A stretch of DNA of 64,000 nucleotides from Domibacillus sp. DTU_2020_1001157_1_SI_ALB_TIR_016 (GTDB taxonomy: Bacteria > Bacillota > Bacilli > Bacillales > Domibacillaceae), in assembly GCF_032341995.1 (NCBI RefSeq), contig NZ_CP135439.1, forward strand, positions 2,811,501 through 2,875,500, read 5' to 3'. Both the position numbers and the translations under genes were made by a program. Positions 2,517 to 53,692 of this stretch are shown piece after piece. How positions within the stretch are numbered: the stretch's first letter is position 1; every line of letters starts with the position of its first letter. The notes beneath the pieces are model-generated. The model saw only the letters and a list, made by a program, of their open reading frames with translations. It was not told the origin of the DNA and did no database searches.

Positions 2517-2737
2517 AGGTATTTCTCTCATTGGTATGGGCGTTCTGAGAAGTTAAAACAAGCCAATGTGAGGGCAGAAATTATTCCTTTACCAAGTCAA
2601 CTTTCAAAAGTTTTAGAATTGGATAAACCTAATAAGATTTTTCAAAATGAATTAGTAGCTTCAAGTACTGTTGATTCAGATAATCACAACATAAAAAAGT
2701 TTAACGAGCTATTTAAGTTAGACTTTGAAGATAGTAA
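2517..2737 (+). pseudogene. Unrecognised AT-rich coding fragment
   Basis: An open frame begins after a TAA at 2514 and reads YFSHWYGRSEKLKQANVR, then a lysine-rich stretch. It runs into the transposase orfA remnant at about 2735, where its frame continues only by chance to 2807. A GTG at 2568 could serve as start, but no Shine-Dalgarno site is obvious. The composition matches the rest of the inserted block. I do not recognise the family. It looks like the internal or C-terminal piece of a protein carried by an earlier mobile element. Confidence 0.35.
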
Positions 2738-2980
2738 AGATATGACGAACAGTTTAAAAAACAAGTTGTTAAATTACACATTGAGGGCCGGTCTGTTTCA
2801 GACTTAGCAACAGAATATAGGGTGTCCCCTACTTCTATTTACAAATGGATTAAACTTCATTCAAGCATAGAAACAACAATCACTCCTAGAAAATTAAATG
2901 AAATCCGTAAAGAAAATAGACGTTTAAAACAAGAGATCGAAATTCTTAAGCAAGCGATGTTTATTATCACTGCTAAATAG
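2738..2980 (+). pseudogene. IS3-family OrfA remnant (helix-turn-helix plus leucine zipper)
   Basis: The frame reads RYDEQFKKQVVKLHIEGRSV, then a helix-turn-helix (VSDLATEYRVSPTSIYKWIK), then a coiled segment ending in KENRRLKQEIEILKQA. This is the standard layout of the IS3 OrfA DNA-binding subunit (about 80 codons here). There is no usable start: an in-frame TAA at 2735-2737 precedes it, and the bases there look like a start (ATGAGTAAAAGATAT-like) that has lost a nucleotide. The orfB catalytic partner with its DDE domain is absent; topB begins 75 bases later. It is therefore an inactive remnant. Confidence 0.8.
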
Positions 2981-3054: not shown

Positions 3055-5244
3055 ATGGCAAAAAGTGTAGTAATCGCCGAGAAGCCCTCTGTTGCACGCG
3101 ATATTGCAAATGTATTGAAGTGTACGAAAAAAGGAAATGGATTTTTAGAAGGTGATAAATATATCGTTACGTGGGCATTAGGACATTTGGTTACGCTGGC
3201 AGATCCAGAGGCTTACGATAATAAATATAAAACATGGAATTTAGAGGATCTTCCAATGCTTCCAGAACGCATGAAATTAGTTGTAATGAAGCAAACTGGA
3301 AAACAGTTTAATTCTGTTAAGAGTCAGCTCGTTAGAAATGATGTTAACGAAATAATTGTGGCTACTGATGCAGGGAGAGAGGGAGAATTAGTCGCACGCT
3401 GGATTATTGAAAAAGCAAAAGTAAATAAACCGATTAAGCGTTTATGGATTTCATCTGTAACGGATAAAGCAATAAAAGACGGCTTCGCAAACCTTAAACC
3501 TGGAAAAGCCTACGACAATTTATATTCATCGGCCGTGGCACGATCTGAAGCCGACTGGTATATCGGATTAAACGCAACACGTGCTCTAACAACGCGTTTT
3601 AACGCACAGTTAAATTGTGGACGTGTCCAAACACCAACAGTTGCGATTATTGCCCAACGTGAAGAAGAAATTAAGCATTTCAAAGCACAGACTTATTATG
3701 GCATTGAAGCACAGACATCAGAGAATTTAAAGCTGACATGGCAAGACGCAAAAGGTAACAGCCGTAGTTTCGAAAAAGAAAAAATCGATACCATTGTTAA
3801 AAAGCTTGGAAGCCTTGATGCAGTAGTTACAGAAATTGATAAAAAGAAGAAAAAATCATTTGCACCTGGCCTTTATGATTTAACAGAGCTACAACGTGAC
3901 GCGAATAAGATTTTTGGCTACTCAGCAAAAGAAACGCTAAATATTATGCAAAAACTGTATGAGCAACACAAGGTATTGACATACCCTCGTACAGATTCAC
4001 GCTATATCTCTTCAGACATCGTAGGAACACTTTCAGAGCGTCTTAAAGCTTGCGGGGTTGGAGAATATCGTTCTTTAACAAACAAGATCTTAAGCAAGCC
4101 TATAAAAGCTTCGAAATCATTTGTCGATGATAGTAAAGTTTCAGATCACCACGCTATTATCCCAACAGAAGATTATGTAAATTTTTCGGCTTTTACAGAT
4201 AAAGAGCGTAAAATTTATGACTTAGTGGTTAAACGGTTTTTAGCTGTGTTACTCCCAGCGTTTGAATATGAACAATTAACACTTCGTGCGAAAATCGGTA
4301 ATGAAAACTTTGTTGCTAGAGGGAAAACCATTTTATCAAATGGTTGGAAAGAAGCATACGAAAATCGATTTGAGGATGACGACGCAGAAAATGATTTGAA
4401 AGAACAAATTTTACCTAGCATCGAACAAGGCGATAAATTAGATGTAAAATTAATTGTGCAAACCTCAGGTCAAACAAAACCTCCTGCACGCTTTAATGAG
4501 GCGACATTACTTTCAGCCATGGAAAACCCTACAAAGTACATGGACACACAGAACAAACAGCTTGCAGCAACTTTAAAATCAACTGGTGGCTTGGGAACTG
4601 TAGCAACGCGAGCTGACATTATTGACAAGTTATTCAACTCATTCTTAATTGAAAAACGTGGTAAAGACATTCATATTACGTCAAAAGGGCGCCAGTTGCT
4701 TGATCTAGTACCAGAAGAATTAAAATCCCCTACATTAACAGCTGAATGGGAGCAAAAGCTTGAAGCAATTGCAAATGGCAAACTGAAAAAAGAAGTATTT
4801 ATTTCCGAAATGAAAAATTACACTAAAAAAATCGTTGCTGAAATTAAGGCAAGCGATAAAAAATACAAGCATGACAATATCTCAACGAAATCTTGTCCAG
4901 ACTGCGGGAAACCAATGCTTGAAGTAAACGGAAAAAAAGGAAAAATGCTTGTCTGCCAAGATCGTGAATGTGGTCACCGTAAAAATGTTGCACGTGTTAC
5001 GAATGCTCGCTGCCCTCAATGTAAAAAGAAAATGGAACTTCGCGGTGAAGGTGCAGGTCAAATTTTCACATGTAAATGTGGATATCGCGAGAAATTGTCT
5101 GCCTTTGAAGCAAGACGCAAGAAAGAATCTGGTGGAAAAGTAGATAAACGAAGTGTGCAAAAATATTTAAAACAGCAAGAAAAAGATGTCGAACCAATAA
5201 ATAATGCATTTGCAGATGCATTAAAAGGAATAAAATTTGATTAA
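3055..5244 (+). CDS. topB: DNA topoisomerase III TopB (complete, horizontally acquired)
   Basis: 729 aa, full length for Bacillus TopB. A type IA topoisomerase that decatenates and relaxes negatively supercoiled DNA by single-strand passage. TOPRIM domain at the N-terminus (AEKPSVARDI at ~9-18, acidic motif TDAGREGE at ~104-111). The catalytic Tyr is at about 310 in VLTYPRTDSRY. The C-terminus has two zinc ribbons (CPDCGKPM ... CQDREC and CPQCKKKM ... CKCGYREKL) and a basic tail. From memory the sequence is closest to Bacillus cereus-group TopB. It is AT-rich in third positions, unlike the flanking genes, and lies opposite to the native topB it interrupts. It has its own promoter and terminators and is the only intact topB in the window. 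Confidence 0.95.
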   Translation: MAKSVVIAEKPSVARDIANVLKCTKKGNGFLEGDKYIVTWALGHLVTLADPEAYDNKYKTWNLEDLPMLPERMKLVVMKQTGKQFNSVKSQLVRNDVNEIIVATDAGREGELVARWIIEKAKVNKPIKRLWISSVTDKAIKDGFANLKPGKAYDNLYSSAVARSEADWYIGLNATRALTTRFNAQLNCGRVQTPTVAIIAQREEEIKHFKAQTYYGIEAQTSENLKLTWQDAKGNSRSFEKEKIDTIVKKLGSLDAVVTEIDKKKKKSFAPGLYDLTELQRDANKIFGYSAKETLNIMQKLYEQHKVLTYPRTDSRYISSDIVGTLSERLKACGVGEYRSLTNKILSKPIKASKSFVDDSKVSDHHAIIPTEDYVNFSAFTDKERKIYDLVVKRFLAVLLPAFEYEQLTLRAKIGNENFVARGKTILSNGWKEAYENRFEDDDAENDLKEQILPSIEQGDKLDVKLIVQTSGQTKPPARFNEATLLSAMENPTKYMDTQNKQLAATLKSTGGLGTVATRADIIDKLFNSFLIEKRGKDIHITSKGRQLLDLVPEELKSPTLTAEWEQKLEAIANGKLKKEVFISEMKNYTKKIVAEIKASDKKYKHDNISTKSCPDCGKPMLEVNGKKGKMLVCQDRECGHRKNVARVTNARCPQCKKKMELRGEGAGQIFTCKCGYREKLSAFEARRKKESGGKVDKRSVQKYLKQQEKDVEPINNAFADALKGIKFD

Positions 5245-36902: not shown

Positions 36903-36931
36903 GATGACATATCGGACATAAAGCGTCAAAA

Positions 36932-37020
36932 CACCTCTTCCTTACGCCGGTACAAACCGGATCAAGTTTTAAGGGTTAAGGCAGCTCGCCTCTCTCAGCC
37001 CGAAGGCACCCCCAGCGGTG
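36932..37020 (-). promoter_or_regulatory. TPP (thi-box) riboswitch aptamer
   Basis: The minus strand carries the conserved thi-box blocks: GGGGTGCC, CGGGCTGAGAGAGGCG, CCCTTAAAACTTGATCCGG and ACCGGCGTAAGGAAG. It binds thiamin pyrophosphate. With the terminator downstream it should switch off ylmB-tenA-thiZXY when TPP is abundant. Confidence 0.95.
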
Positions 37021-37048
37021 ATTCCTATTTAATTTGATCTTGATACTA

Positions 37049-47597: not shown

Positions 47598-48659
47598 TTA
47601 CCGTTGTTTATCCATCTTCACAGACTTCAAGGAAAGTAGGGCACCGCTCGCATGTGCAAGATAACAACAGTATGCTAAAGAATTTTTTACCACGTCTAAT
47701 TCAAGATAAAAAGCAGGAGGAGCCCCCGGGTGCCAGTTTATCTCATACAGCCAAACCTTGCCGCTGCTGTCAATTCCTATATCAATACCAAGCTCATCAA
47801 ATGAACGTCTATAAAGTTTATCCATTTCCTTGGAGATCGATATGGCAAAAACCTCTAAATACCGCTGCATATTAAAGTAATCTTCGCCAAACTCCTGCTT
47901 TAAAAAAGGCGTAATATACAAGGCAGCGCCCCCGCTGCTAATATTAGCTTTCACACTATTGGGAGGCGCAATACGAGGATAAATCGAGCAAACTGTCCAC
48001 CTGCCGGTTCCATCTTTTTGCACATGCAGTCTTAAATCATACACGAGGCCTGCCTGGTTTCTGCATTGAATGAACGTTTGAATAATGTACTTTTCCGGGA
48101 TTTTGTCCGTTAATAAGGAAGACAGCATACGTCTCGACATCCGTTGCTGTTCGTTGTCCCCCCTGACCTCATATTCGTCTTCCATCCGCCTTACATAGAT
48201 AATACCCTTTCCTTTTCGCCCATTTCGCGGCTTTAAGATTACCTGCTCTTTTTTATGAATAAAATCAATTGCTGCTTCCACTTCCTTCACTTCCATCGTA
48301 TCTGGAAGATAGCGAGAGAATAAAGCCGACTTGCTTAATTTATTAAAAACTTTCATTTTATTTCCAACAGACCAGCTTGTAAATGGAATAAGCGCTTTTA
48401 ACGCTTCAATGATCAATTGTTCTTCTTCCGATTTCACATGGCCGTTTGCATTATAAACCACATCCGGAAAAGTCGTTTGCTTTTCAATCCATTGTCCATC
48501 TTCATAAAACTTACCCCGTATCGTCTTCGTTTCTAAGTCTACATCCTGGGGCTGAAAATAAAAAAAGCCAATCCCCTCCGCTTTTGCTACCGCAGCAAAA
48601 GGATAAGCTTTCAAATGCTTTTCAGGCCCTGCCAAATCCAGCATGCCGACCATCACCAT
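47598..48659 (-). CDS. YheC/YheD-family ATP-grasp protein (spore coat-associated)
   Basis: 353 aa from the ATG at 48659. ATP-grasp fold: VILKPRNGRKGKGI (ATP lysine region), YIIQTFIQC, DLRLHVQKDGTGRW, and the Mg-binding GIDIGIDSSGKVWLYEINWHPGAPP. The family is found in spore-formers and is annotated endospore coat-associated; the ligase reaction is not defined. GGAGGTG is 7 bases before this ATG; the frame extends upstream to 48728 without a ribosome site. It lies directly downstream of the ATP-grasp/MCP operon but after a terminator. Confidence 0.83.
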   Translation of the reverse strand: MVMVGMLDLAGPEKHLKAYPFAAVAKAEGIGFFYFQPQDVDLETKTIRGKFYEDGQWIEKQTTFPDVVYNANGHVKSEEEQLIIEALKALIPFTSWSVGNKMKVFNKLSKSALFSRYLPDTMEVKEVEAAIDFIHKKEQVILKPRNGRKGKGIIYVRRMEDEYEVRGDNEQQRMSRRMLSSLLTDKIPEKYIIQTFIQCRNQAGLVYDLRLHVQKDGTGRWTVCSIYPRIAPPNSVKANISSGGAALYITPFLKQEFGEDYFNMQRYLEVFAISISKEMDKLYRRSFDELGIDIGIDSSGKVWLYEINWHPGAPPAFYLELDVVKNSLAYCCYLAHASGALLSLKSVKMDKQR

Positions 48660-48736
48660 CCATTTCACCTCCACTTGTATTTTATTAACGAAGGCTTGTT
48701 TTGCGTGGGCAGACTTTTTCCTCATCATTACATAAA

Positions 48737-48772
48737 AAGAACCGAAAATCGCTGGATGGATTTTCGGTTCTT
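48737..48772 (-). terminator. Terminator of the ATP-grasp/MCP operon
   Basis: AAGAACCGAAAATC and GATTTTCGGTTCTT around an 8-base loop; U-rich on the minus strand. Confidence 0.88.
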
Positions 48773-48779
48773 GATCTCT

Positions 48780-50528
48780 TTATTGCTTTACACCAGTGCG
48801 GGTCGGCCGCTCTGAATCGGTTTCCTGCAAGGTTTCAAATCGACTGACCATTTCCTGTAAAATATAGGCGACTTCTCTCAGCTTGCCGCTTTGCTGCTGG
48901 GCCGTTTCAACAACCTGGTTTTGCTGCTGAGCCGATGCAGCAATTTCCTGCGTAATCGCTGTTCCCTGCTCTGAAATTGCACTGATTTCCTGGATGGCCG
49001 TTAATGCTTCCTCTGATGCGTTAGAAACAAGGCGGGAATTTGTAAAAATTCGTTCTGATCTTGTTTCCAGCTCTTCAACCGCTTGGAAGATCTTTGAAAA
49101 CAGCTTGCCGCTGTCTTCAATCATGTCGACGCCTTTCATCATATCTTCTACATTCGTTTCATTCAGCGTTAATACTTTATTAGTTTGTTTATTAATTTCC
49201 TCTACTGTTGCCGTAATGTCCTGCGCTGAAGCAGCCGTTTGCTGAGCCAGCTTTTGAATCTCCTGGGCAACAACAGCGAATCCTTTTCCTGCTTCGCCTG
49301 CGCGGGCAGCTTCAATCGCTGCATTCAGTGACAGCAAATTAGTTTGAGCGGAGACGTTACGTATTAATTCGACAATTTCGCTGATACGGGTCAGCTTGCT
49401 GTTTAAATCAGACAAGTTCTCCTGCGAGACCAGTCCATTCTGTTTGATCGACTGAATCTGGCTCGAAATCGTTTCTACCTGCTGCGAACCACTTTGAGAC
49501 AAATGACTCGTTTCTGTTGCCATCTCTTTAATTTGGCCTGTTTCCTTATTCATCTGCTCGACTGCTTCAGTCATATCCAGCATGAGGTTAGAAAGAGATT
49601 CCAAATGGCGGGAACGGTCTTCCGCTCCCATTGCTTCTGTCTGGGTGCTGCTGGCAATCTGATCCGATGCTTCTGTTAATTCCTGAAACGACGCAAACAG
49701 TGTATTCCCTGACTGGCTCAAATCTTCGGCTTTTTCATGCACATTTTGAATAACTGCATTTAACTGGCGGCGCATGCTCTCAAAGCTGCCGGCAAGCATG
49801 CCAATTTCGTCTTCCCGGTCGAGGCGGATCGGATTACGCAAATTCCCGTCTGCAATTTCTTGGGTGAAACCAGCCAGCCGTTTGATGGGAGACGAAATCC
49901 GACTGCCCAGCCAAATAGCAGAGCCGGTTCCAAGTAATACGGATAAAACTAAAAACAGCAGCGGGTAGAAAAGAGCTTTCTGTTCTAACGAATGGATAAA
50001 CGATGCATCCATGTCAACGCCGACAATGGTGTCCGTTCCTTCTATCGGTATAAAAAAGGATTTATGAACGCCCCATTGATCCGTGTAAATCGAACTTACT
50101 ACGGCGTGTTCTTCTGTGAAAGCTTTCTCCTGTTCAGGCGTAAACGGCGATTCTTTCATATATTCATCACTGCCGTTGAGGGCCACAATATAATCCTTGT
50201 TATCCTGGCTTGTTAATACATATACATATTCAATGCCTTCACGCTCTTTTATAAAATCATCTAAAGCGGATTTTAATAGCGAGCCGCTTTTTTCTGGACG
50301 TTGTATGGCGTCCTCTATCTCCTGTGAAGAAAGTGTCCGGGCCAAAGCCGTTCCGTTTTCTTCAAGACGATGATTAAATTGGGAGAGCACATGATCATCT
50401 AGAATCGTATTTAATAAGTTAATAAAAAATAAGCAAATCACTAATGAAAAAGCTACAAACGGTACCAAAAAACCAAGTGTTAATTGAGATTTAAGAGACT
50501 TTTTAGGACGTATGATTGATAATTTCAC
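48780..50528 (-). CDS. Methyl-accepting chemotaxis protein under c-di-GMP riboswitch
   Basis: 582 aa. TM1 at about 18-42, extracellular Cache-like sensor (~45-180, [40 protein letters not shown]), TM2 near 185-210, HAMP, then an MA signalling domain with tip [20 protein letters not shown]. Its ATG overlaps the stop of the ATP-grasp gene (ATGA), so both proteins are made together. Expression should follow the c-di-GMP-I riboswitch upstream of the ATP-grasp gene, tying chemoreceptor level to the motile/sessile switch (inference). The ligand is unknown. Confidence 0.93.
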
Positions 50529-51679
50529 AATACTTGCTCCATTTCGCGGTTTTTAAGTTCTTGCATGTCAATAAAAGGTTCCAAGTCCAGTTGAAGGATA
50601 TAATGATTTTCGTCTAAGTTATCGCTTTTGAAAAACACAATGGCAAATGTCCGATCGTGAGCAGCCTGAATCGGACGGTATTCTAAAATATGCTCAAATT
50701 CCTTTTGAAACGCTTCATGATCAACAGCTTTTACTAATCCCCGTGACAAGGCGAGCGGAATTTCCGCACAGCAAAAGCTGTAAATAGAATCATCCATATC
50801 CTCGATAATCTGCTTCCAATCCGGTTTTTGCTGCGTGAAATACTGCTCATAGATATTATGTCCGTAAGCATAGTAACCGAGGTCTGTCGTACCTGCTCCT
50901 GCAAACCGGAGTGGATTAATCTCAATAGGAATAACGATTTCTCCCTGCTTTCTAATTTCAAAATGGATCGGGTAGTTTTGTAATGGGACCAGCTTTTGCA
51001 GCTCAGCCATAAAAGAATAAGCCTGCTCATAAATTTCTTGAATCACTTGTTTAGATGTATAGTAAATGCGGTCCGATGTATCGTATTCATCTTTGAAAAG
51101 CCGCTTAAAGACGCTTAAAACGACTGGATTTCCCTGCTCATCATAGTATCCGTCAACTGCGTATTCTTCTCCCTGAATCCACTTTTCAATAAGAAGCGTT
51201 TTTTGATTAACAACCGACGGGTCGTATATTTCTTCCGAAAGCAATACGTCCGCTTCAAACTGATGGATCGCTTTTTCCCACTCTTCTTTCCGCTTTACTT
51301 TATAAACCCCTACGCTCGAGTAGCCAAAGGTAGGCTTCAGCACGACAGGAAACGGAATTTTCTCGACCGGCAGGCTGAGCAGGTTATCAGCCGTTACCAC
51401 TTGATAAAAATAGTCAGGGTACATTTGAGACAAAAGAGCGCGCAGCTGTCCTTTGTTTTTAAACAGCTTTGACCACTGATTCTCATTACTGTCCGGACAA
51501 TAAGTATCTAGAAGAGACAGCCCGCTTTCTGAGTTGGTCAGCAGCCGCTGTTCTTTCGTCAGCGAATCGAAAAACGCCATGCAGTTCACAGGGTCCGCCT
51601 CCTTTAAAACCGGAATCTGTAAATGTTCCAGTGTTTGTTTCAGTAAAGGAGACAGAATTTGTTCGTTTAAAATCATCAT
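50525..51679 (-). CDS. ATP-grasp ligase co-transcribed with a chemoreceptor
   Basis: 384 aa, cytosolic ATP-grasp enzyme: [21 protein letters not shown] (ATP-binding lysine and glycine-rich loop), [16 protein letters not shown], and the metal/catalytic block [25 protein letters not shown]. It would form an amide, peptide or thioester bond via an acyl phosphate; similar enzymes are dipeptide ligases or carboxylate-amine ligases. The substrate is unknown. AAAGG lies 10 bases before the ATG. First gene of a two-gene operon with the MCP; a c-di-GMP riboswitch and two terminator hairpins lie in its leader. Confidence 0.8.
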
Positions 51680-51749
51680 AATGTATGTAATCCTTTCTAG
51701 TTAAAATGTATGTGGGTACGATTACCTCCAATAACGCACGTAAAGAAAA

Positions 51750-51775
51750 AGTCCACCTTAAAAAAGGTGGATTAT
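51750..51775 (-). terminator. Second leader terminator of the ATP-grasp/MCP operon
   Basis: Minus strand TCCACCTT-TTTT-AAGGTGGA followed by CTTTTT, about 70 bases before the start codon. Confidence 0.8.
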
Positions 51776-51788
51776 CCTTACATACATG

Positions 51789-51818
51789 CTAAAAAAAGCA
51801 TCTTGTTTAAAGATGCGT
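51789..51818 (-). terminator. Expression-platform terminator of the c-di-GMP riboswitch
   Basis: Minus strand GCATCTT-TAAAC-AAGATGC followed by T7, immediately after the aptamer. Confidence 0.85.
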
Positions 51819-51821
51819 CCA

Positions 51822-51908
51822 TCTTCTTCGGCAGCCTGGCTGCCTTAACACTTGGTTTTAGGTCTGTGGCTTTGCGTCCTTATTTTTCAATAAGTTTGCT
51901 ATTATCGG
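51822..51908 (-). promoter_or_regulatory. Cyclic-di-GMP-I (GEMM-I) riboswitch aptamer
   Basis: Read on the minus strand it has the full GEMM-I layout. AGCAAAC opens a stem closed by a GAAA tetraloop (TTATTGAAAAATAA), then the hallmark GGACGCAAAGCCACAG, ACCTAAAACC and the tetraloop-receptor stem GGCAGCCAGGCTGCCGAAG. Two terminator hairpins follow before the ATP-grasp gene, so c-di-GMP probably controls transcript elongation. Whether binding turns it on or off cannot be decided by eye. Confidence 0.9.
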
Positions 51909-51909
51909 A

Positions 51910-52262
51910 GGATATGAAAATTGTAATAAACATCCAGATGCTCATGCGTCCAAACGACTGCTACAGGTAAAAAGATTTAACGCAGACCATTTAATTCCTA
52001 AGAACCCAACAATTAGTTCTTTTTATCTATTTTTCAGTATAATAAATGAAGCAAAATTCGTAAATAGTTTTACAAAAAAATGTATACTTTAATAAAATGA
52101 AATGAATACTTTAATGCTTGTAAATATTGATTTTCGAAAATTTTATTAATGAACAACGATCGTACCTTTTGTTTTTTTAACATAATTTAACATATAGTTT
52201 CAGACTTAAAATGGTATCTTTTGACCTAGAAATAATACGCATCTTATATGGCATGACAAAAT
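51910..52262. other. AT-rich gap without recognised genes
   Basis: About 350 bases of very AT-rich sequence between the riboswitch and the rlmCD terminator. It must hold the riboswitch promoter, but no convincing -35/-10 pair stands out. AAGAAC and GTTCTT near 51995-52021 form a weak hairpin. No ORF with a ribosome site was seen. Confidence 0.5.
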
Positions 52263-52263
52263 C

Positions 52264-52308
52264 AAAAAAGCAGGGAATACGGCCAATTGACCTCTTCCCT
52301 GCTTTTTA
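52264..52308 (-). terminator. Terminator of rlmCD
   Basis: AAAAAGCAGGGAA and TTCCCTGCTTTTT flank an 18-base loop region; U run on the minus strand. Confidence 0.82.
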
Positions 52309-52315
52309 TGTTTTG

Positions 52316-53692
52316 TTATCTTAATTCTAATACTGCTACGGCCTCGACATGGACCGTCTGCGGGAACATATCCACTGGCTGCACTTCACGTGTTTGAAAG
52401 CCGCCGTCTTCAAGTACACGAAGATCCCGTGCGAGTGTACCCGGGTTACAAGACACGTACACAACCCGTTTCGGCTTCATTTTTAAAATCGTGTCAAGCA
52501 GTGCCTCGTCGCAGCCTTTACGAGGCGGGTCTACAACGATTACATCCGGCTTGATGCCCTGCTTATACCAGGCCGGGATCACTTCCTCTGCTTTTCCCGC
52601 TTCAAAATGAGCGTTTGTAATGCCGTTGAGCTCTGCATTTTGCTCGGCGTCTTCAATGGCCTGCGGTACAATTTCAACCCCGTACACCTGCTTTGCTTTT
52701 TGCGCAAGAAACAGGGAGATCGTGCCGATACCGCAATAAGCGTCGATCACGGTTTCCTCACCAGTCAATCCGGCATACTCAAGTGCTTTATTGTAAAGCA
52801 CTTCTGTTTGAACCGGATTTACTTGATAAAACGACCGGGCGGAAATGGCAAATCGGATGCCGCCGATCGTATCATAAATCACATCTTCTCCAAAGAGCGT
52901 CCGCGTTGTGGAACCGAAAATAACGTTTGTTTTATCCGGATTTACATTTTGTACAATCGACGTAATATCTGGAACAGCCTGGCGAATCCCCTCTATAATG
53001 GCCTCCTGGTTCGGCAGCTCATTGGTGCGTGTGATCAGCACAGCCATTTTTTCGCCGGTTTGATAGCCGATTCGCGCCATTACGTGACGGAGCACACCTT
53101 TATGGCGGCCTTCATCATAAGGCATAACGCCGTTCGCCGCACAAACATCTTTTACTTTTTGAATGATTGCGTCACTTTCTGTATGCTGGATCAAGCATTC
53201 TGTCATATCAATAATGTCATGCGAACGCTTTTTATAGAAACCAGCGACAATCTGCCCCTCAGGCGACAGACCGACCGGCACCTGCGCTTTATTCCGGTAG
53301 CGCCACGGATCCTCCAAGCCGAGCACCGGATGTACCGGCACGTCCGGAAGCTTGGCGATCCGGTCAATCACATTGCGTACCTGGTTGTATTTCATATCCA
53401 GCTGCCCTGCATAGGATAAGTGCTGCATCTGGCAGCCGCCACACTCATCATAGACCGGACAAGGCGGCTCCACCCGCTCTTTTGATGCTTGATCGAGCCG
53501 GACCAGCTTGGCAAACCCGTACCCCTTGTTTAATTTAGTTACTTGAATTTCTCCTGTTTCTCCCGGCAGAACACCTTCTATAAATAATGGATAGCCGTCA
53601 ATTTTGGCTACTCCTTTTCCTTCATGCGTCAAATCAGCCACCGTTACATGAACGATATCGCCTTTTTGAACCGGAGCTTGAATCTTTGCCAC
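52316..53692 (-). CDS. rlmCD: 23S rRNA (uracil-C5)-methyltransferase RlmCD
   Basis: 458 aa, TrmA/RumA family. N-terminal TRAM RNA-binding domain (~8-65), the iron-sulfur cysteine cluster [17 protein letters not shown]-binding middle part, then the SAM domain: [23 protein letters not shown] and the catalytic Cys in [13 protein letters not shown]. In Bacillus the YefA enzyme methylates both U747 and U1939 of 23S rRNA; a single such gene is seen here. AGGAGAG before the ATG. It follows the TrmB gene by 16 bases, likely in one transcript. Confidence 0.93.

Follow-up and report, generated by a model that had tools for sequence, protein, structure and literature searches.

A c-di-GMP-I-type leader, probably an OFF switch, ahead of an ATP-grasp/chemoreceptor operon in Domibacillus

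In a stretch of 64,000 nucleotides (nt) from Domibacillus sp. DTU_2020_1001157_1_SI_ALB_TIR_016 (contig NZ_CP135439.1, positions 2,811,501 to 2,875,500; hereafter the window), an RNA leader of the cyclic di-GMP (c-di-GMP)-I type, also known as GEMM-I, precedes an operon for an ATP-grasp enzyme and a methyl-accepting chemotaxis protein (MCP). We suggest that this leader is, somewhat more probably than otherwise, an OFF switch on the operon, whose enzyme is likely an amino-acid ligase and whose receptor carries a Cache-like sensor; within this reading we infer the ligand, the direction of control and the role of a helix, P1, at the base of the aptamer. Without ligand, the segment GAAGAAGATGGA that follows the aptamer would pair with the 5' arm of one of two terminators, T1 or T2, and polymerase would pass. 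With ligand, the aptamer and the short P1 helix would hold GAAGAAGATGGA, so that T1 and T2 could form and transcription would end at one or both. Enzyme and receptor would then be produced only at low c-di-GMP, when cells swim.

The aptamer was identified by a cmscan search with Rfam over the whole window. The minus strand at 51910-51827 matches the full-length RF01051 model with 69.1 bits, where the curated cut-off is 35 (E 1.9e-11), a covariance-model result that bears out the claim of a GEMM-I leader in an earlier note on this DNA. The letters on which that note relied (the GAAA loop, GGACGCAAAGCC, and GGCAGCC followed by GGCTGCC) are all present in the leader. In the Rfam alignment, the P2 loop is GAAA (GNRA), the P3 pairs are present and model position 38 (A47) is A, as expected for the family; the tertiary contact is predicted from sequence. 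Two details of the earlier description did not survive. GGCAGCC and GGCTGCC had been taken as the two halves of a receptor stem; in the family fold each of them is a part of the 3' strand of the long stem P3 and pairs with upstream letters instead of with the other, and their mutual pairing belongs to an alternative fold that appears in the unconstrained minimum-energy structure. The statement that every GEMM-I hallmark is present was also too strong: the A at 51900 occupies model position 11 (the G20 position of the Vc2 riboswitch), where the family has G. Position-11 A occurs naturally in a minority of cases in the order, and we therefore keep the structural family and lower the claim about the ligand.

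A scan for hairpins and promoters on both strands of 51600-52320, compared with shuffled sequence, found two terminator-like sites against a shuffle mean of 0.3 (standard deviation 0.5), in agreement with the earlier description of a terminator with a T7 tail and a second one ahead of the ATP-grasp gene (Table 1). The candidate P1 helix has the same register as that of a related leader, L040 (L numbers are our labels for loci); another possible partner, CAATTTTC, lies further upstream and ranked above TATCCTC in the window. We predict an OFF switch because neither T1 nor T2 includes any part of the aptamer and the T2 arm can pair with the 3' flank of the aptamer. Indeed, the 5' arm and loop of T2 can pair with GAAGAAGATGGA at -10.0 kcal/mol, which only 6 of 300 control stretches equalled, and the corresponding duplexes reach -17.6 kcal/mol in L027 (2/300 controls as good), -16.5 in L028 (0/300) and -11.3 in L040 (3/300). 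When growing transcripts were folded at equilibrium, with nothing, the aptamer, or the aptamer plus P1 forced, the first antiterminator had a probability of 0.94-0.95 before the 3' arm of T1 was made; forcing P1 excludes it, by construction. In transcripts that reach T2, T1 is left with a probability of 0.01, or 0.06-0.10 if P1 is forced, and the first antiterminator is back at 0.97 after T2 is made, unless P1 is forced. A similar arrangement is known from Cd1 of Clostridioides difficile, an OFF switch whose terminator likewise lies outside the aptamer, and can coexist with it, while the antiterminator takes the 3' end of the aptamer; Cd1 differs in that it precedes flagellar genes and no P1 helix was seen in it, and the ON switch pilM is organized differently (PMC9262584). 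The class I switches of C. difficile are mostly OFF switches (PMC6200980).

Several results weigh against this direction of control, or narrow its reach. Transcripts ending with T1 give it a probability of 0.94-0.98 in all three forcing cases, and T2, once made, stands at 0.95-0.97 in all three; equilibrium folding thus shows no ligand control, and the sign of the switch is a kinetic prediction. P1 is short, with six pairs and one mismatch. The arm-flank pairing is ordinary in L064 (113 of 300 controls as good) and L066 (114/300). Under a harsher control, in which short flanks were dinucleotide-shuffled 2000 times and paired with the bare arm, 335 shuffles did as well for the window (T1 arm), 681 for L027, 509 for L028 and 648 for L066, leaving support for L040 alone (14/2000) and, weakly, L064 (111/2000). 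A terminator script run on 26 leaders, 13 of this operon and 13 others of the window's own genome, detected a terminator in nine (6/13 and 3/13, respectively), six of the nine with pairings equalled by at most 15 of 300 controls; with a terminator in just six of the 13 operon leaders, the proposed scheme covers under half of them. Among the seven operon leaders that lack one, L050, L057, L061 and L069 have CCCTC at the 5' edge of the aptamer and GAGGAGGG ahead of the start codon, a pair of motifs that would allow translational control and makes it a candidate there.

In L027 (Domibacillus iocasae, about 4865-4945) the loop of the second terminator contains a perfect inverted repeat, AAGGCCTGATCCCTG..CAGGGATCAGGCCTT, and the outer arms still pair; in the Brevibacillus terminator of L064 (about 2643-2675), the 3' sequence of the aptamer itself, CGGGCTGCC, occurs again, in the manner of a decoy strand.

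The closest known system is Bc1-mcpE of the Bacillus cereus group, whose GEMM-I aptamer is likewise followed by two terminators (28 bp apart; in the window, 26 nt lie between the stems) and a receptor gene as such; Bc1 has G at position 11, and the part of the publication available to us names mcpE downstream and no ATP-grasp gene (PMC11218506). Its behaviour also weighs against an OFF switch. Bc1 turned a reporter ON in Bacillus subtilis, its T1 unfolded with rising c-di-GMP, and it was locked OFF in its own host; Bc2, class I as well, is an ON switch (PMC11218506), so that architecture alone cannot give the direction. We considered that c-di-GMP might relieve termination in the window too, with enzyme and receptor made as c-di-GMP rises, for example to steer cells in the final phase before they settle or disperse. 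The equilibrium folding is compatible with such an ON switch. However, both terminators are clear of the aptamer and of the P1 strand, which leaves the aptamer no evident way to block them, and the terminator arms are complementary to the very flank that would be held on the side of the aptamer. We regard an ON switch as unlikely, although it is the strongest of the alternatives, and retain the OFF switch as the preferred reading.

The association of the enzyme with a receptor recurs among relatives. In a scan of a genome collection that gave 293 ATP-grasp relatives, we examined the loci of the best 80. An MCP gene is the direct neighbour of the ATP-grasp gene in 53 of these, 45 recognized by script and eight by eye (L028, L041, L048, L051, L054, L056, L059 and L073), the latter because open frames taken from stop to stop made the overlap exceed the script's rule. 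In L063 the MCP frame is only 110 amino acids (aa) long. The 27 loci with no adjoining MCP are, by their labels, mostly from outside Bacillales, but L075, L079, L082 and L106 belong to that order. In a second sample, an even draw of 397 genomes from the order of the window, 35 genomes have the ATP-grasp enzyme (E <= 1e-60), 45 have the MCP sensor (E <= 1e-20) and 34 have both, with adjacent coordinates in 34 of 34; the two samples are not independent, since they have genomes in common (four pairs checked). Moreover, L064 (Brevibacillus fluminis) and L066 (labelled Anoxybacillus sediminis) have the two genes in swapped order and a different kind of MCP, one that exceeds the Pfam cut-off for PDC signatures and stays below it for dCache, and again the pair lies behind an aptamer. 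The earlier note had called the coupling of a receptor with a peptide-bond-type ligase unusual. This holds for the enzyme partner, within a pairing that is itself recurrent, and fails for the receptor, because a receptor behind GEMM-I and two terminators was already described as Bc1-mcpE (PMC11218506). Our literature search, which mostly did not extend to subscription journals, returned no description of a c-di-GMP riboswitch that controls a chemoreceptor along with an ATP-grasp enzyme or a decarboxylase.

The ATP-grasp protein matches PF13535 (E 5e-54), and its closest solved sequence in the PDB is the L-amino acid ligase BL00235 (3vot; E 5.5e-08); the nearest named relative is that of D. iocasae, 80% identical. 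Residues K115, E253, N255 and R258, which we take to be metal/ATP residues, are invariant in 21 relatives. An AlphaFold2 model built on an alignment of 21 sequences (mean predicted local distance difference test, pLDDT, 88.7) gave six first fold matches of which five are L-amino acid ligases, namely RizA (4wd3), BL00235 (3vot) and BacD/YwfE (3vmm, 3wnz), alike in fold and distant in sequence (13-16% identity, root-mean-square deviation 5.7-6.6). In fourth place stands a phosphoribosylglycinamide synthetase (4dim) whose E-value hardly differs from theirs, with biotin carboxylases not far behind, and the reaction therefore cannot be read from the fold by itself. No NCBIfam cut-off was reached, the best match being a carbamoyl-phosphate-synthase-like model, and we therefore describe the protein as ligase-like only; amino-acid ligation is its likely activity, predicted from sequence and model. 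To our knowledge, ligases of the RizA, BL00235 or BacD type have no known link to chemoreceptors. The receptor has PF00672 (HAMP) and PF00015 (MCP signal) domains, and a Pfam search of the protein at E 0.001 found no Cache family in its sensor. Its N-terminal part, modelled from 37 aligned sequences with a mean pLDDT of 92.3, matches in fold the Cache domains of WalK/YycG, KinD, Tlp3 and McpA, with the best E-value for each between 2.9e-05 and 1.7e-04; identity to them is just 10-14% and the scores are modest. We thus predict an extracellular Cache-like sensor domain, at about residues 35-195. We do not favour the idea that the ATP-grasp enzyme covalently modifies the tail of the receptor, because no conserved C-terminal sequence was seen among 52 MCPs.

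In part of these loci the aptamer accompanies the gene pair. With a covariance model built from the 14 c-di-GMP-I aptamers of the window's own genome, we searched 873,134 bases comprising the window and the 80 loci. Besides the window, whose match follows by construction, 12 of the 80 loci have an aptamer at E <= 5e-15, always directly upstream of the operon and on the same strand (a weak match in L030, at E 0.93, was dropped as chance). The model finds none in 41 of the 53 ATP-grasp/MCP loci, which counts against our reading; in 13 loci chosen from the 68 aptamer-less ones, Rfam matched no riboswitch in the 500 bases that precede the ATP-grasp gene, and two tRNAs lie about 600 bases upstream of it in L033 and L041. 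On a tree of ATP-grasp proteins (72 rows, the window and 71 of the 80 loci; nine loci with no intact frame above 330 aa were dropped), the presence of the aptamer is scattered and requires at least six changes, four of them forced by well-supported branches, which indicates repeated loss or gain. In one locus (L211 of genome G076, 2655-2741, minus strand) the aptamer sits between the two genes, ahead of the receptor alone, an arrangement that would switch the receptor and not the enzyme. The genes behind the other aptamers of the window's genome include a GGDEF cyclase (L111), a LuxR-type regulator (L107) and surface proteins with SLH or fn3 domains (L026, L116).

The enzyme is exchanged in some relatives. 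Eleven of the 45 genomes with the MCP lack the ATP-grasp enzyme, and in eight of the nine such loci examined a gene of 549-552 aa lies directly upstream of the MCP. The four of these proteins that were scanned all match PF00282, the family of pyridoxal phosphate (PLP)-dependent decarboxylases, and the other four are 54-59% identical to that of L201. An aptamer found with the same model precedes the decarboxylase-like gene in four of the eight (L201-L204, 43 to 78 bits); in the ninth locus, L199, neither enzyme adjoins the MCP. On a tree of the receptors, made by a quick method, with flags on long branches that include L205 and L072 and with L064 and L066 absent, decarboxylase-linked receptors occur in more than one place, and both of those in L205 fall among ATP-grasp-linked ones. 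From the recurrence of the pair and the exchange of its enzyme, we propose that the enzyme may make or remove an amino-acid-derived compound that the receptor senses. Alternatively, the two could merely share a transcript, the enzyme acting outside chemotaxis; the lack of a conserved target at the MCP C-terminus agrees with this. This alternative fits poorly with an enzyme that lies beside this MCP in 34 of the 35 genomes that have it, with its pairing to a different, dCache-type MCP in swapped order behind an aptamer in L064 and L066, and with a second amino-acid enzyme in the same slot elsewhere, and we consider it quite improbable.

The A at position 11 bears on the ligand and could change its choice, a point against c-di-GMP. 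Among the 13 operon leaders it is found only in the window, L027 and L072, the other ten having G, as do all 13 other aptamers of the window's genome. Position 11 was equated with Vc2 G20 for Bc1 (PMC11218506), and a G20A GEMM-I aptamer has been crystallized with 3',3'-cyclic GMP-AMP (cGAMP) (PMC6274999); the leader might accordingly be a riboswitch for 3',3'-cGAMP, or for both ligands. On the other hand, G11A had no large effect in Cd1 (PMC9262584). A search of the window's genome found no SMODS cyclase and 23 GGDEF matches; the 19 of these that were read all have the canonical D and lack the residue that we take to mark the Hypr type. Moreover, an A20-type sequence pattern, present in 27 of the 397 genomes of the order against 266 for the G20 type, precedes mixed, ordinary-looking genes, as judged by eye and phmmer (both patterns are strict, catching 8 of the 14 aptamers of the window's genome). 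A cGAMP or dual-ligand switch appears very unlikely, and c-di-GMP, perhaps with relaxed choice, is the likeliest ligand predicted from the sequence. In a genome of the same genus (G002; L157, 757-1332, minus strand), an A20-type aptamer lies ahead of the gene for GTP cyclohydrolase I (PF01227), a GTP-consuming enzyme.

We give an equally low probability to a locked riboswitch, in which T2 would terminate whatever the ligand and the operon would be mainly under other control: Bc1 was unresponsive in vivo because its T2 stayed formed (PMC11218506), and T2 of the window is the stronger of the two hairpins and forms in all three cases of the equilibrium folding, but the arm-flank pairing of T2 is kept in L027 and L028 despite partly changed sequence, which suggests that T2 itself is switched.

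The operon extends further than the earlier note had it. An ATP-grasp/MCP operon does lie behind the aptamer; its span, however, was given as 50525..51908, and the MCP gene, whose start overlaps the ATP-grasp stop, continues to 48780. The hairpin with a T run that follows the MCP gene limits the operon to two genes. A YheC/D-like ATP-grasp gene (47598-48728) was rejected as a third member, since that hairpin intervenes and no YheC/D match follows the MCP in L027. Upstream of the leader, the promoter-like site is weak, as the scanned stretch has four such sites against 2.8 (standard deviation 1.5) in shuffles. The only other Rfam match above its gathering score in the window is a thiamine pyrophosphate (TPP) riboswitch at 36922-37023 (minus strand, 74.1 bits).

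Table 1. Features of the leader and operon in the window
Feature	Position	Strand	Remark
Promoter-like hexamers TTTACG-17-TATACT	52036..52064	-	9/12 matches
Possible P1 5' strand TATCCTC	51908..51914	-	Predicted; 6 standard pairs and 1 mismatch with 51826-51820
c-di-GMP-I (GEMM-I) aptamer	51827..51910	-	Rfam RF01051
Possible P1 3' strand and 5' arm of antiterminator 1, GAAGATG	51820..51826	-	Inferred
Terminator-like hairpin T1	stem 51798..51816, T7 tail 51797-51791	-	Hairpin -6.4 kcal/mol
Terminator-like hairpin T2, CTTTTTC tail	51752..51771	-	Hairpin -11.1 kcal/mol
ATP-grasp enzyme, 384 aa	50525..51679	-	L-amino-acid-ligase-like
MCP, 582 aa	48780..50528	-	HAMP and MCP signal domain
Operon-closing hairpin with T tail, AAGAACCGAAAAT..ATTTTCGGTTCTTTTT	48737..48772, hand-counted	-	Between MCP and YheC/D gene

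Together with the OFF switch, these observations lead us to a broader idea, which we hold only tentatively and think rather doubtful as a whole: a c-di-GMP-gated cassette in which an ATP-grasp ligase or a PLP-dependent decarboxylase, either of which would act on an amino-acid carboxyl group, would make or alter a compound that the Cache receptor of the same operon follows. Cells would chase or avoid a signal that they set themselves, and both activities would be turned off on settling; the enzyme slot would be exchangeable, and the receptor and the RNA switch constant. We found no prior description of this small, recurrent enzyme-receptor unit of Bacillales, which is tied to c-di-GMP in several lineages. 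The occurrence of two unrelated amino-acid enzymes in the same slot before related receptors makes the receptor ligand testable with a short list of candidates: the substrates and products of the ATP-grasp enzyme and of the decarboxylase.

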